Below, piece after piece: positions 42,388 to 46,962 of a stretch of 64,000 nucleotides of DNA (its first letter is position 1; each line of letters opens with the position of its first letter). The stretch is taken from the NCBI RefSeq assembly GCF_006346395.1, contig NZ_VDMS01000001.1, positions 2,170,001 through 2,234,000 of the forward strand. The letters are read 5' to 3'. Below the pieces are notes generated by a model. That model did no database searches, had not been told where the DNA came from, and saw only the letters and a program-made list of their open reading frames with translations. Made by a program: the position numbers and the translations under genes. The stretch is from Nocardioides plantarum. GTDB lineage: Bacteria; Actinomycetota; Actinomycetes; Propionibacteriales; Nocardioidaceae.

Positions 42388-42557
42388 CTAGTGGCACGGG
42401 GCCGAAGTTCTTGGCCGCTTCGCGCACTGATGGCACGCACCTCGCGGCAGCGGCGATCCTCGGAAGACAACCGGGTATGCCGTCGGACCGCCGCCACCGC
42501 GAAGGCACGCACCCTGAGCACGCCAAGCCATCAAGAACCTCGGACCCGCGGCACTAG
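42388..42557. mobile_element. 170-bp MITE-like element, copy A
   Basis: The element begins and ends with CTAG and has imperfect terminal inverted repeats: CTAGTGGCACGGGGCCGAAG on the left, while the right end reads inward as CTAGTGCCGCGGGTCCGAGG. Repeats extend about 26 bases to GTTCTTG. It is the reverse complement of the element at 46733-46902, with about 8 differences over 170 bases. No transposase is encoded. It fills most of the gap between two genes, and its right-hand CTAG supplies the TAG stop of the next gene (42554-42556 on the minus strand). Confidence 0.85.
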
Positions 42558-42823
42558 TCGCCGGAGATCTCCTCGATGGCCCGGACCGACTGCCAGGGAC
42601 GGTGGACCGTGTAGCGCGCGTCGCCGTTGCGGGGGTCCATCAGGCAGTCGACCGACCACCAGGTGCGGCGTACGTCGACCACCTGCTGCTCCAGGTAGCC
42701 CGGCGGTGTCGTGTAGCAAGCCTCGCTCGCGTGGTCGAGCGAGACCTGCAGGCCCGACCAGCTCAACCCCGCCGAGACCACCACCAGAGCGGCGGTCACG
42801 AGTGGACGGCGACGGGACGACAC
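42554..42823 (-). CDS. Small secreted protein, 89 residues
   Basis: Short exported protein with an N-terminal hydrophobic signal (LVTAALVVVSAGLSWSG) and two Cys in the mature part (EACYTTPPG and SVDCLMDP). Family not recognised. GTG start at 42823 with GGGGA about 12 bases upstream. The stop TAG falls inside the terminal CTAG of the adjacent 170-bp element, so the natural C-terminus may have been altered by its insertion. Confidence 0.65.
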   Translation of the reverse strand: MSSRRRPLVTAALVVVSAGLSWSGLQVSLDHASEACYTTPPGYLEQQVVDVRRTWWSVDCLMDPRNGDARYTVHRPWQSVRAIEEISGD

Positions 42824-42899
42824 AGGGGTGAGTATCCCCGAGCAGGCGCGGCCTGCCGACGCCGTCGTCGAGACGGCTGGACGTCGGAGTGGTGCGTGG

Positions 42900-44396
42900 T
42901 CAGGGCGTCGAGCAGGTGGTGAACCGCGCGCTCTTGCTCATCGTCTGGTGGACCCCGTGCTTGAGGTAGGTCGCCTTCGCTGTCAGGAGGTAGCTGCGGC
43001 CGGGCTTCAACGCACGTGCCGGGATGGTGCGGTAGATCTTCTGGTTCCCCAGCGTCACCGAGGTGCTCTGCAGCCGCCACCCCTTGGCGGCCTTGGCCGT
43101 GACCTCGAGCGTGGTGTTGACCAGCGGCAGGCACGAGACCGGTGCGGTGAGCGTGAGACGCCCCGCCCTCGACGACGTGGTCACCGGGCTGGTCAGGGCG
43201 GGGAGCAGGATGGGCCGGGCCACCAGGGCGCTGTGGCCGGTGGCGATCCACACGACCCACCCTCGGCCGCTCGGGTTGGTCGCGATCTGCGCGTCGACGC
43301 CGGTGACGCTCAGCCCGGTGCGGAACTGCGTCAGGGCACCGGCGGCGCCGGTCTGGTGGTTGCCGATGGCGAGGGTGTCGCACCCGATGGCCACCGACGA
43401 CATGCGACCGCTGGCGTCGGTGGCCACGTCTCGACCACCGGTGGCGCACGACTGACCGACCAGTGCCGGGACGGGCTTGCTGAAGGCGTGGGCCGTCGAC
43501 CTCCAGCTCGCGACGACCGACTGCTCACCGCCCTTCTTGGTGTCGCGGGCCGTGGCGAGCAGTCGGATCCCCCGGGAGGTGGTCGTCATCCGGGCCGTGT
43601 TGTGGTCGGTCGTGGTGCCGGCGACGGAGGCGAAGCTGCTCCAGGCGCCCGAGCCGGAGGGCTTCCACGCGACGCGGACGGGCGCGGTGACCGCGGCGTA
43701 CTGGTCGATGAGCATCACGCTAGAGGTGCCGTCGTCGGCGAGCTGGACGTTGCCCACGGCGTACGGCGCGCGCAGCGTGGTCGGTGACGCCGGCGTCGAC
43801 GTGGACAGGGCGTCGTAGTAGTAGACCGTGCGGGCGTCGTCGTCGGGTCCGGACACGAGCGCGGCGCTGATCCCGCGCGGCCCGGCGTTGACCGCCATCA
43901 GGGTGCTCTCGCTCGGTGCCGAGGCGACGTCGGTGCCCGGCATCAGGTGGCCGTCGACGACCTGCGCGGCCGCGATCCGGTCCTGCATCGGGTCATCGGT
44001 GGACGCATCGCCACTGAGGTGGTGCCAGACCAACGTGGCCTGGTCGTCGGACGCCACGACGAAGAGCTGCTCGGCGGTGACCTTCTCGAGGGCGTCGATC
44101 GTCTGGATGCCCCCAGCGCACGCGGTCGCCCCCACCGGCAGCACGCACACGTGCACCTGGGAGAACAGGTCGTCTCCGGGGTGGGAGCTGATCCAGCCGA
44201 CGTACGACGTGCCGGCCCGGTCGGTGGCCACGTCGAACCGGGAGTAGTTGGCGTCACGGTCCAGGACGACCGAGGCACCCGCCGATCCCGGACTCCCGGC
44301 AGCGGCCCGAGGCTCCGAGGAGGACGCGGCGGGCCCGGAGACGGACCCGAGGGCGAGGGCAGCAACAACCGCGACGGCGGGTCGGGAGAATCTCAC
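42900..44396 (-). CDS. Large secreted hypothetical protein
   Basis: A 498-residue exported protein with an N-terminal signal (PAVAVVAALALGSVSGPAAS). The body is beta-rich with repeating SYVGWIS- and VWHHLSG-like strands, reminiscent of a beta-propeller, and the C-terminal 120 residues look like Ig/FN3-type sandwich repeats with Cys (VSCLPLVN, TTCSTP). Family not recognised. GTG at 44396; the frame is open upstream to 44495 but without a signal peptide. One of three adjacent secreted-protein genes on this strand. Confidence 0.8.
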   Translation of the reverse strand: MRFSRPAVAVVAALALGSVSGPAASSSEPRAAAGSPGSAGASVVLDRDANYSRFDVATDRAGTSYVGWISSHPGDDLFSQVHVCVLPVGATACAGGIQTIDALEKVTAEQLFVVASDDQATLVWHHLSGDASTDDPMQDRIAAAQVVDGHLMPGTDVASAPSESTLMAVNAGPRGISAALVSGPDDDARTVYYYDALSTSTPASPTTLRAPYAVGNVQLADDGTSSVMLIDQYAAVTAPVRVAWKPSGSGAWSSFASVAGTTTDHNTARMTTTSRGIRLLATARDTKKGGEQSVVASWRSTAHAFSKPVPALVGQSCATGGRDVATDASGRMSSVAIGCDTLAIGNHQTGAAGALTQFRTGLSVTGVDAQIATNPSGRGWVVWIATGHSALVARPILLPALTSPVTTSSRAGRLTLTAPVSCLPLVNTTLEVTAKAAKGWRLQSTSVTLGNQKIYRTIPARALKPGRSYLLTAKATYLKHGVHQTMSKSARFTTCSTP

Positions 44397-44520
44397 GCCA
44401 GCGTATTTAACACGAGGCAGCCGGTGCCGTGGCTCGACCTCCTCCGGATCCTTCCGCAAGGGCCCGCGGTGCCCCTGCGAGGTGGCGGGAGGCATCCAGC
44501 AGTCGGCCTCGACAAGGACG

Positions 44521-44553
44521 CGAGCCCCACTCCCGCCGGGGGAGTGGGGCTCG
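44521..44553 (-). terminator. Hairpin terminator after the 44618-45568 gene
   Basis: Fourteen-base perfect arms (CGAGCCCCACTCCC and GGGAGTGGGGCTCG) enclose a 5-base loop. It lies 65 bases beyond the minus-strand stop at 44618. Symmetric, so it could work in both directions. Confidence 0.75.
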
Positions 44554-44617
44554 GTCGTCGTCGTGCGTGGCGCGGTCGGGGGTCACCGACCCGTCGATGC
44601 GCGCGACGTGGCCCGGG

Positions 44618-45568
44618 TCAGGCGGCGTAGCCCGTGACGTAGTGGACGCCGTCGTTGTTGCCGGTCCGGTTGGTGCTGAAGTAGAGCTTGTTGCTCTCGG
44701 GGCTGATCCCGACGCCCTCGATCTCGAACTTGGCGTAGTTGGCGCTGGTGATGTCGATGTCGATGCCGCTGTTGGGCGACACCGGTTGGGTCTTGGGCAG
44801 GGAGATGGTCGGCGCGATGTTGTCGTACACCAGGACCCTGCTGCGGTTCGCGCGGGTGATGGGCCGGTAGAAGCGCTGCGTCGCGGCGTCGTAGTGGACG
44901 CCTTGAGACGCCCAGCCGTCCGGCTTGCCGTTCATCGTGAACGCCTTCGCGAGGTGGATGTCGTTGGCGCTGCCTCCCTCGGCGGTCACGTCGAGGCTCC
45001 CGTGGTAGACCTTGTCGTCGGTGCTGAAGAAGAAGTCCACGGTGTTGCCGTTCTGGGAGATCTTGCTCAGGCCGCTGACGCCCAGGGTGTCCGTGCCGTT
45101 CAGGATGTTGTAGGTGTGGTCCCACTCGTAGCTGGTGCCGTCGTACTTCAGCTTGACCAGCTGCTTGGCGCTGTTGGCGCCGTCGTCGCTGCCGAACATG
45201 GTGACCACGAACATGTAGGTCTGATCACCCACGGTGACGATCTGCATGTCGTTGGCGTGCCCGAGCCAGGTGTTGACGTTGGAGTCGCTCGTCGCGTTGT
45301 GCATCAGCTCCCGGTCGCCGGTCTCGCGGTTGAACCGGTAGATGACCGACTTCTTGTGGTCCGAGTCGGTCTTGATGGTGTAGAGGAAGTTTCTGGTCAC
45401 GGCGAAGCCCTGCGCCGCTGTGCAGGCATCCGAGCCGCAGTCGTAGTCGGGTATCTCGGCCTTGGTCGTGTAGCCCGTGTAGCTCGCGGCCTGGCTGGGC
45501 GTGGCCATCGTGACCGTGGCGGCCAGGACGGACGTCATCAGCATCGCCAGCTTGCGTGTTGTTCTCAC
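44618..45568 (-). CDS. Secreted protein, possible helveticin-like fold
   Basis: A 316-residue exported protein with a signal peptide ending near SQAAS. The body shows repeated aromatic strands and the motifs FLYTIKTDSDHKKSVIYR, WLGHANDMQIV, YMFVVTMFG and KQLVKLKYDG. These recall the beta-propeller-like helveticin J class of large bacteriocins, but I cannot confirm the match by eye. GTG at 45568 with GGGAGAA upstream. The codon pattern is slightly less GC-biased than the core genes. A strong hairpin terminator follows. Confidence 0.78.
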   Translation of the reverse strand: MRTTRKLAMLMTSVLAATVTMATPSQAASYTGYTTKAEIPDYDCGSDACTAAQGFAVTRNFLYTIKTDSDHKKSVIYRFNRETGDRELMHNATSDSNVNTWLGHANDMQIVTVGDQTYMFVVTMFGSDDGANSAKQLVKLKYDGTSYEWDHTYNILNGTDTLGVSGLSKISQNGNTVDFFFSTDDKVYHGSLDVTAEGGSANDIHLAKAFTMNGKPDGWASQGVHYDAATQRFYRPITRANRSRVLVYDNIAPTISLPKTQPVSPNSGIDIDITSANYAKFEIEGVGISPESNKLYFSTNRTGNNDGVHYVTGYAA

Positions 45569-45692
45569 GTGGTTCTCCCGAGAGTCGATGGATGGTGGTG
45601 ACGGGGCTAGACCCGTCGACACGAGGTCTGCCCCGACGTTGTCGATGTCAACCACCGTGCGTCCACCATGCGCCCCGCGACATCCACTCCGG

Positions 45693-46355
45693 TCACGGAC
45701 CCCCGCGCCAGTGCTCGATGCGTCGGTGGTCGGGCAGGAACCCGTTGCGCACTCCCCAGAGGACCGCCTGGGTCCGGCTCTCGACGTCGATCTTGCGGTA
45801 GAGACCGCGGATGTAGGACTTGACCGTGTTGGGGCTCAGGTAGGTCAGCGCGGCGACCTCGGCGTTGCTCTTGCCCTGGGTGATGAGGGCGAGGACCTCC
45901 GCCTCCCGGTCGGAGAGTCCTTCGCCGCGGCCGGGCCAGTCGCCGGCGGTGTTGCGGGCCTTGGGTGCCGAGGCACTGACCACGATCTCGCCGGCGTGGA
46001 CGGCCTCGAGCGCGGCCACCAGGTCGCGGGCGCTCAGGGCCTTGGACAGGTAGCCGTGCACACCGAGGTCGCGGGCCATCGCGACGAGCTCCGGGTGGAA
46101 GTTCCAGGTGTAGACCACGACCCGGCGGGCCAGGGGGTTGTCGATCAGCGTCTTGATCTCGTCGTGGTCGGACTCGGGCTGCGCGAACGAGTCGTAGAGC
46201 GCGATGTCGACGTCGTCGATCACGGCCTTGTTGGTGTCGAGCTCGGCCACCACGACCCGGTCGCGGTAGGGCTCCAACATGTTGGCGACCCCGACCACCA
46301 CCACGTCGTAGTCGTCGACGAGGGCGACCTGGATGGGGTCACGAGGGCTGCTCAT
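45693..46355 (-). CDS. NarL/LuxR-family response regulator
   Basis: A 220-residue response regulator. The receiver has VDD at residues 13-15, a candidate phospho-acceptor Asp in DVDIALYDSF, Thr in VVVYTWN and Lys in YLSKALSA. The C-terminal LuxR HTH is LSDREAEVLALITQGKSNAE with LSPNTVKSYIRGLYRKI. No cognate kinase is adjacent. ATG at 46355; divergent from the GlsB-like gene across a GGGGTG-rich region. It may control the secreted-protein genes beside it. Confidence 0.92.
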   Translation of the reverse strand: MSSPRDPIQVALVDDYDVVVVGVANMLEPYRDRVVVAELDTNKAVIDDVDIALYDSFAQPESDHDEIKTLIDNPLARRVVVYTWNFHPELVAMARDLGVHGYLSKALSARDLVAALEAVHAGEIVVSASAPKARNTAGDWPGRGEGLSDREAEVLALITQGKSNAEVAALTYLSPNTVKSYIRGLYRKIDVESRTQAVLWGVRNGFLPDHRRIEHWRGGP

Positions 46356-46375
46356 ACGGGCACCCTAACCGCCCT

Positions 46376-46418
46376 AGGGGTGTGTCGCACCCCTCAGGGG
46401 GGTGGTTGCGTACACCCC
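46376..46418. promoter_or_regulatory. GGGGTG inverted repeats between the response regulator and GlsB genes
   Basis: AGGGGTG (46376-46382) and CACCCCT (46388-46394) form perfect 7-base arms around 5 bases. GGGGTGT at 46377 pairs again with ACACCCC at 46412-46418. Nested inverted repeats in a divergent intergenic region are typical of regulator binding. The adjacent LuxR-type regulator is the first candidate. Confidence 0.5.
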
Positions 46419-46457
46419 AAGGGCCGCGACCGGCAGCCTCGAAGGAAAGGCACTCAC

Positions 46458-46736
46458 ATGCTCGGACTCATCCTGACCATCATCGTCGTCGGCGCCATCG
46501 CCGGCTTCGTGGCTCGTCTCCTCGTCCCCGGCCGGCAGGACCTCTCGATCGTGGCCACGATCGTGCTCGGCATCGTCGGTTCGTTCGTCGGCGGGTTCCT
46601 GGGCTACCTGCTGTTCGGCAAGGACGCCGGCGACGGGCTGCTCCAGCCCGCGGGCATCATCGGCTCGATCATCGGCGCGGTCATCGCGCTGCTGATCTGG
46701 ACGGCGTCGCAGCGCCGGACCGGCGCTCGGGTCTAG
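46458..46736 (+). CDS. GlsB/YeaQ/YmgE-family membrane protein
   Basis: A 92-residue stress-associated small membrane protein with three hydrophobic segments. The family pattern is GFVARLLVPGRQDLS, then ATIVLGIVGSFVGGFLGYLL and GSIIGAVIALLIW. Family members are linked to general stress responses; molecular function is unknown. AAGGAAAGG lies upstream of the ATG. The stop codon TAG is part of the CTAG that begins the 170-bp element copy B. Confidence 0.92.
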   Translation: MLGLILTIIVVGAIAGFVARLLVPGRQDLSIVATIVLGIVGSFVGGFLGYLLFGKDAGDGLLQPAGIIGSIIGAVIALLIWTASQRRTGARV

Positions 46737-46902
46737 TGGTGCGGGTCCGACGTTCTTGATGGCTTGGCGTGCTCAGGGTGCGTGCCTTCGCGGTGGCGGC
46801 GGTCCGACGGCATACCTGGTCGTCTTCCGAGGATCGTCGCTGCCGCGAGGTGCGTGCCCTCAGTGCGCGAAGCGGCCAAGAACGTCGGCCCCGTGCCACT
46901 AG
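46733..46902. mobile_element. 170-bp MITE-like element, copy B
   Basis: Inverted relative to copy A at about 95 percent identity, the same length and the same CTAG ends. The left end reads CTAGTGGTGCGGGTCCGACG and the right end reads inward as CTAGTGGCACGGGGCCGACG, with GTTCTTG following on both sides. GGTGCGTGCC occurs twice inside. A short frame can be read in both copies but looks non-coding. The CTAG at 46733-46736 contains the TAG stop of the GlsB gene. Confidence 0.85.
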
Positions 46903-46922: not shown

Positions 46923-46962
46923 CGCACGACAGCCGCCGGCTCGAGCCGGCGGCTGTCGTGCG
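46923..46962. terminator. 40-bp perfect palindrome, bidirectional terminator
   Basis: Arms of 20 bases beginning CGCACGACAGCCGCCGGCTC meet without a spacer at position 46942/46943. It lies between the converging GlsB-like and threonine-aldolase-like genes, where a two-way terminator is expected. Confidence 0.8.

Follow-up and report, generated by a model that had tools for sequence, protein, structure and literature searches.

A 64,000-nucleotide window of Nocardioides plantarum (contig NZ_VDMS01000001.1, positions 2,170,001 to 2,234,000; C1:2170001-2234000 of a 4.68-Mb genome, G000, in nine contigs) carries two inverted copies of a 170-base hairpin element bounded by CTAG. From its sequence, the element is a miniature inverted-repeat transposable element (MITE), non-autonomous and once mobile, that would be moved by transposases encoded elsewhere. 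Taking all observations together, we favour with fair confidence an IS630-mobilised MITE in which the transposase-specific ends are separate from a conserved hairpin core.

Reverse-complement alignment of the two copies (coordinates in Table 1) gave 95% identity over 171 nt, and no other inverted repeat of comparable quality was detected in the window. A preliminary description of this DNA, made from its letters alone, had reported such a pair with CTAG at the starts and ends and without a transposase; indeed, CTAG was present at 4/4 ends, and the list of open reading frames of the window contained no transposase within the copies or between them. The terminal inverted repeat (TIR) pattern, for which no chance occurrence is expected in the window, was likewise found at 4/4 copy ends. 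The same description had limited the terminal repeats to about 26 bases. The repeat is present, but its extent was underestimated: the self-inverted repeat spans the whole 170 bp (70–71% as DNA), and one strand is predicted to pair almost completely as RNA. The element is thus short, consists of a hairpin only and lacks a transposase gene, as a MITE should. CTAG itself occurs 27 times in the window versus ~167 expected from base composition, with four of the 27 being the ends of the two copies.

A BLAST search of the genome identified 10 full copies, nine at 94–100% identity to the query and one at 82%, and an additional 85-bp copy with an internal deletion. Nine of the 10 are recent relatives of one another, and the full copies are dispersed, with unrelated flanks and sharp, shared CTAG ends, which is the pattern of a MITE. 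Relatives of the element were found in 39/150 genomes of the genus. A 22-bp match at C3:116942, considered for a parent insertion sequence (IS) in this genome, proved to be coding sequence and was rejected. The window copies lie 4.2 kb apart, and a second inverted pair lies 4.0 kb apart at C5:295145 and 299190; together, the pairs C1:2212388/2216733 and C5:295145/299190 amount to more clustering than expected for 10 random copies. There was no sign that the 4.2-kb block between the window copies has moved, as no second location of it was seen, and in the nearest relative (G021) the response regulator and GlsB genes lie side by side with no element present.

The TIR pattern was searched for over ten genus genomes. 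Besides element ends, this yielded in genome G014 a TIR pair 1.16 kb apart that encloses a gene for a 368-aa IS630-family transposase (NF033545, 245 bits with a cut-off of 100; PF13358), with a TAG stop codon contributed by the CTAG end. Close relatives of this IS in G037, G052 (13 copies), G062 and G067 end on one side in CTAGTGGCGCGGATTTGAAGTTGTTGGACGGTTGGC or a near variant, and the IS630-type elements of all five genomes are flanked by CTAG on both sides. The arms of the element in the genus read CTAGTGGYGCG.....GAAGTTSTTGNACGGTTGGC, and over the outermost ~34 bp it agrees with the termini of the full IS630-family IS in these sister genomes; the element core is absent from the IS630 sequences that we read. 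Since the arms match the ends of IS630-family IS, the window family has, on this evidence, an IS630-type parent and not one of the IS5 group mentioned in the preliminary description; IS5-type ends fit sister families only. The target agrees with this assignment: IS630-family transposition occurs at TA, which is duplicated (PMC2170065), and the title of a 1991 paper by Tenzen and Ohtsubo, cited in the same source, states that an IS630-associated composite transposon prefers the TA in 5′-CTAG-3′. The IS630 transposase gene (L175:1726-2832) has no stop codon of its own and takes its TAG from the CTAG target.

We next consider the interior. Folded as full-length RNA, copy 2 reaches −131.4 kcal/mol on the plus strand (z −13.6) and −93.6 kcal/mol on the other (z −7.7), the difference being due to G.U pairs on the well-folding strand (hereafter W) that correspond to A.C mismatches on the opposite one. 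The W strand folded better in 34/34 non-redundant CTAG-ended elements (mean −129 versus −103 kcal/mol), with 8.3 G.U pairs per element compared to 2.3 on the other strand. When 38 diverse cores spanning several families of the class were aligned, the covariation score was 0.395, compared to 0.126 for shuffled alignments (0/500 reached the observed value) and 0.04–0.10 for slid controls, and 25/40 pairs displayed changes on both sides. This covariation equals that of recognised structured RNAs in strength, and structure is kept far better than sequence. Wobble pairs are fixed by position (U.G in 37/38, G.U in 33/38 and U.G in 27/38 cores), the lower stem contains 200 G.T versus 20 A.C cells, and at three sites a tandem GA/GA exchanges with Watson-Crick pairs, the first site having GA/GA in 21, CC/GG in 6 and GC/GC in 6 cores. 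The subfamily of this genome is a derived form in which extra pairs fill the AA/CAA bulges of the wider family. No Rfam 15 family matches the element at the gathering threshold, the sole match in the window being a tRNA, and relaxed thresholds returned only chance plant and animal miRNA-like matches far under the cut-off. A structured RNA had been named in the preliminary description as an outcome incompatible with a MITE; the fold and covariation indicate that it came true alongside mobility rather than instead of it.

Judged by this modelled pairing, the W strand most likely acts as a putative RNA. The preference for RNA over single-stranded DNA as the selected W-strand molecule is the main uncertainty of our reading. 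G.T is better tolerated than A.C in DNA too, and single-strand transposons, such as REP/IS200 and attC systems, select one strand. The W strand could accordingly be a REP- or attC-like DNA hairpin used in replication-coupled mobilisation or recombination, and it is in keeping with this that the fold takes in the terminal repeats, where the outer 20 bp in Nocardioides have 28 G.T versus 0 A.C. However, the ends match those of DDE transposases, which act on double strands and duplicate TA, neither a tyrosine-HUH nor an integron recombinase was found at the element, and the conserved tandem G.A and numerous wobbles are typical of RNA. We consider a DNA hairpin unlikely.

The location of the copies bears on a further explanation, namely that the hairpin is a cis-acting 3′-UTR element or terminator that terminates or stabilises the transcript of the gene at whose stop codon it lies. 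About 41 of 52 clean-ended copies lie at a TAG or TAA stop (counted if at least 100 open codons precede it, which is a frame test and not gene annotation), often between convergent genes, and both window copies start at the stop codon of a gene. Moreover, ERIC-type repeats affect mRNA stability (PMC2229807). Orientation argues otherwise: at the 52 elements, 24 stops are codirectional with W and 27 opposed to it, with 10 elements having stops at both ends, a symmetry on which we rejected a W-directed 3′-UTR function and which would leave the W-only pairing unexplained. In addition, in the copies that we read the hairpin is not followed by a U-tract. We regard this explanation as improbable. Since orientation to the neighbours is symmetric, the constraint would serve the element itself and not the mRNA of one neighbour; and since a stop codon is kept on both sides of the insertion, inserting at such sites should be nearly harmless. 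Elements with another arm type (TGGTCACC...) were seen directly 5′ of start codons (L031, L037, L039, L043), where the arm reads GGAGGTGACCACTnATG and resembles a ribosome-binding site that the element brings in on its end.

Across actinomycetes, the core occurs with different ends. A Streptomyces form of the element has the core with ends CTAAGGGCTGTCCCGTAATCC; the full IS with these ends encodes an IS5-family transposase (NF033581, 129 bits, just below the 140-bit cut-off; PF13613, PF13359 and PF01609 above cut-off), and relatives annotated as IS112 carry them too. A second family in the N. plantarum genome, family B, has four copies with ends CTAGGGCGTGTCTCTC. IS of 970–980 bp in the genus have nearly the same terminal ~14–16 bp as family B and encode another IS5-type transposase (NF033580), and the family B ends are probably IS427-like IS5-type. 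One family B copy shares its CTAG with a family A copy, representing a nested or adjacent insertion. A third hairpin type, C (G000 C1:513102-513200, L054), has ends CCTAGGAGCC and a core that links families A and B. The IS630-ended and IS112-ended cores are homologous (z 10.7, 0/500 hairpin-preserving shuffles); with the same shuffles, the links A–C and B–C have z ~8, and A–B alone is weaker (z 3.6). Given this homology across different ends, the sequences indicate an exchange of ends around a conserved core, with ends of at least three transposase families on one core, the third (IS427-like) being probable. Half-matches in Streptomyces plasmids, considered as autonomous core-bearing versions, were rejected as hairpins with one diverged half.

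The core is widespread in soil actinomycetes, with a distribution across the class. A first covariance model, built on 34 genus cores, detected relatives in 72/200 genomes of the family and 50/346 of the class, and the exact core pattern TCGCAAGGCGNNGG...CAACGCNGCGAGGTGC matches at least 120 stretches; among the matches listed are Streptomyces, Kitasatospora, Nocardioides, Kribbella, Microtetraspora, Sphaerimonospora, Marmoricola and Frankia. In the Nocardioides records the fold recurs together with the pattern. The core was also seen in one viral contig (L331, IMGVR_UViG_2872980847_000001, 1252-1316).

These results can be set against a rival explanation, an ordinary MITE in which a long inverted repeat gives rise to the hairpin incidentally, strand bias and conservation both being neutral. 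Near-palindromic MITEs with stable folds are numerous in bacteria (PMC10969869, PMC2229807), and short copies with TIRs back to back and no core exist, which makes the core dispensable for some insertions. However, neutral decay of a palindrome would yield equal numbers of G.T and A.C mismatches, and it would account neither for the strand bias in all 34 elements, the wobbles fixed by position across families, the exchange of tandem G.A with Watson-Crick pairs and the covariation, nor for the presence of one core on different transposase ends. We find neutrality hard to sustain. The core-less mini-hairpins, of 40–60 bp with two transposon ends back to back, were seen at L379 ~1165-1225, L168 ~1501-1542 and L180:870-919.

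Insertion was further examined through empty sites. In an f21/g64 genus (a large-genome actinomycete), an element in G440 corresponds to a two-sided empty site in G458, GAGCGCAC-CTAG-GATGTGCC. At a second such two-sided site, CTTCCGCGCGTC-CTAG-AGGGAGCAG in G458, where the CTAG contains a TAG stop codon, G440 has an element together with a 1-kb IS. A one-sided empty site, GGT-CTAG-TCGTCGCC, was found in a Streptomyces plasmid. The duplicated unit is, as read from the copies, the TA inside CTAG and not the whole CTAG, because Streptomyces-type copies read C-TA-AGGG...CCCT-TA-G; CTAA...TTAG copies also reveal the TA duplication. The several copies, matching IS and empty sites thus bear out a non-autonomous transposable element with a CTAG target, as the preliminary description had supposed. 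A stable, non-mobile RNA gene family that never transposed would fit a structure conserved far beyond sequence, but it is already refuted by the empty sites, as well as by near-identical copies at unrelated sites, exact CTAG boundaries and nested insertions, and we give it almost no credence. At L117:3647-4655 and four further G440 sites, the CTAG of a hairpin element has received an insertion of a 1.0-kb IS whose ends are CTAGATGAGTGAGTCC.

We therefore return to the IS630-mobilised MITE with its own core, which would be a two-module non-autonomous transposon of exchangeable outer ends and an inner hairpin. An IS630-family transposase would recognise the terminal inverted repeats, excise the element and paste it into the TA of a CTAG, duplicating the TA; the matching ends suggest that this happens in trans, by visiting CTAG-targeting transposases. 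Since CTAG is rare in a GC-rich genome and often contains a TAG stop, insertions would fall at gene ends with the stop restored. The inner core would not be IS-derived; it would be maintained in folded, single-stranded form and in one orientation only, most likely as RNA, and over evolution it would have been joined to ends belonging to several families of CTAG-targeting transposases. With its wobble pairs, the RNA would keep its fold without the DNA being a perfect palindrome. As our first choice, the hairpin would serve the spread or tolerance of the element and not one neighbouring gene; the RNA may promote transposition, protect the element or recruit a host protein. More tentatively, and with rather less than even confidence, the elements may represent a mobile structured RNA class of actinomycetes, in which an ancient fold-conserved core acquired successive ends (IS630, IS112/IS5 and IS427-like IS5), hides at stop codons and acts as RNA in the element's own cycle.

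Several observations weigh against this account. No autonomous IS630 of matching type was found in this genome, where the TIR pattern is confined to element ends, and within the genus IS630 and the element are not associated (6/19 IS630 genomes carry elements versus 39/150 overall). With no such IS630 in the genome and IS presence not predictive in the genus, the local copies may be immobile now. The conserved G.T pairing could instead mirror a single-stranded DNA stage, and in the subfamily of this genome ordinary pairs replace both the AA/CAA bulges and the tandem G.A, motifs that are thus dispensable in some copies. Finally, the single-CTAG comparison suggested in the preliminary description succeeded for related families but yielded no empty site for any copy in Nocardioides. 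The orthologue of the window site in G021 has a GlsB gene ending in TGA and no CTAG, and is uninformative on the junction; for a copy in G538, the genes were conserved in 60 Streptomyces relatives with intergenic sequence too diverged; and for the near-identical plasmids NBC_00012 and NBC_00046 the syntenic site was not recovered.

Among known systems, the element as a transposon would be a new member of the IS630-derived MITEs, near RUP in principle. RUP of Streptococcus pneumoniae, mobilised by IS630-Spn1, is similarly non-autonomous (107 bp) with IS630-family ends and a TA target (PMC2229807); host and sequence differ, and neither a conserved fold of one strand nor an exchange of ends is described for it. 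ERIC/IRU and Correia/NEMIS are likewise inverted repeats of 100–170 bp with TA ends and long stem-loops that can lie in mRNAs (PMC2229807, PMC10969869); compared by description, our element differs in its CTAG target at stops, its core shared across ends and its tandem G.A. The IS630 family has the ends and target of the window family, from which the element differs in lacking a transposase. IS112 and other Streptomyces IS5-family elements have ends CTAAGGGCTGTCCCGTAA in common with the Streptomyces form and are not the parent of the window family. What would be new for a MITE is a conserved, strand-specific, transposase-independent structured core. Our literature search, which covered open-access papers only and not ISfinder, turned up no account of these elements.

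Bacterial MITEs are usually seen as decayed IS that have no content of their own. In the present case it is the interior that is conserved and the transposase-specific ends that are exchangeable. If the RNA is real, the main bacterial producers of antibiotics would harbour an abundant uncatalogued RNA family, and one parasite would be exploiting several transposase families. The proposal would also account for many repeats that are bounded by CTAG and lie at the ends of genes, and it makes the question of why a hairpin helps a transposon testable.

Table 1. Positions of the hairpin element copies and their parts (window coordinates unless a contig is given)
Feature	Position	Strand	Remark
Hairpin element, copy 1	42388..42557	-	W strand is window minus
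Copy 1 arm, terminal inverted repeat	42388..42422	+
Copy 1 arm, terminal inverted repeat	42523..42557	-
Copy 1 conserved hairpin core	42412..42527	-
Copy 1 CTAG end	42554..42557		TAG is stop codon of minus-strand gene 42554-42823
Copy 1 other CTAG end	42388..42391
Hairpin element, copy 2	46733..46902	+	W strand is window plus
Copy 2 left arm, terminal inverted repeat	46733..46767	+	IS630-family match (~34 bp)
Copy 2 right arm, terminal inverted repeat	46868..46902	-
Copy 2 conserved hairpin core	46763..46878	+	derived form
Copy 2 CTAG end	46733..46736		TAG is stop codon of plus-strand GlsB-like gene ending 46736
Copy 2 other CTAG end	46899..46902
Family B copies (L055-L058)	G000 C1:1835707-1835875, C2:323965-324133, C2:719400-719568, C5:313792-313960

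Located 3′ of copy 2, at 46923-46962, is a 40-bp perfect inverted repeat (CGCACGACAGCCGCCGGCTCGAGCCGGCGGCTGTCGTGCG) with the appearance of a native terminator for the convergent genes.

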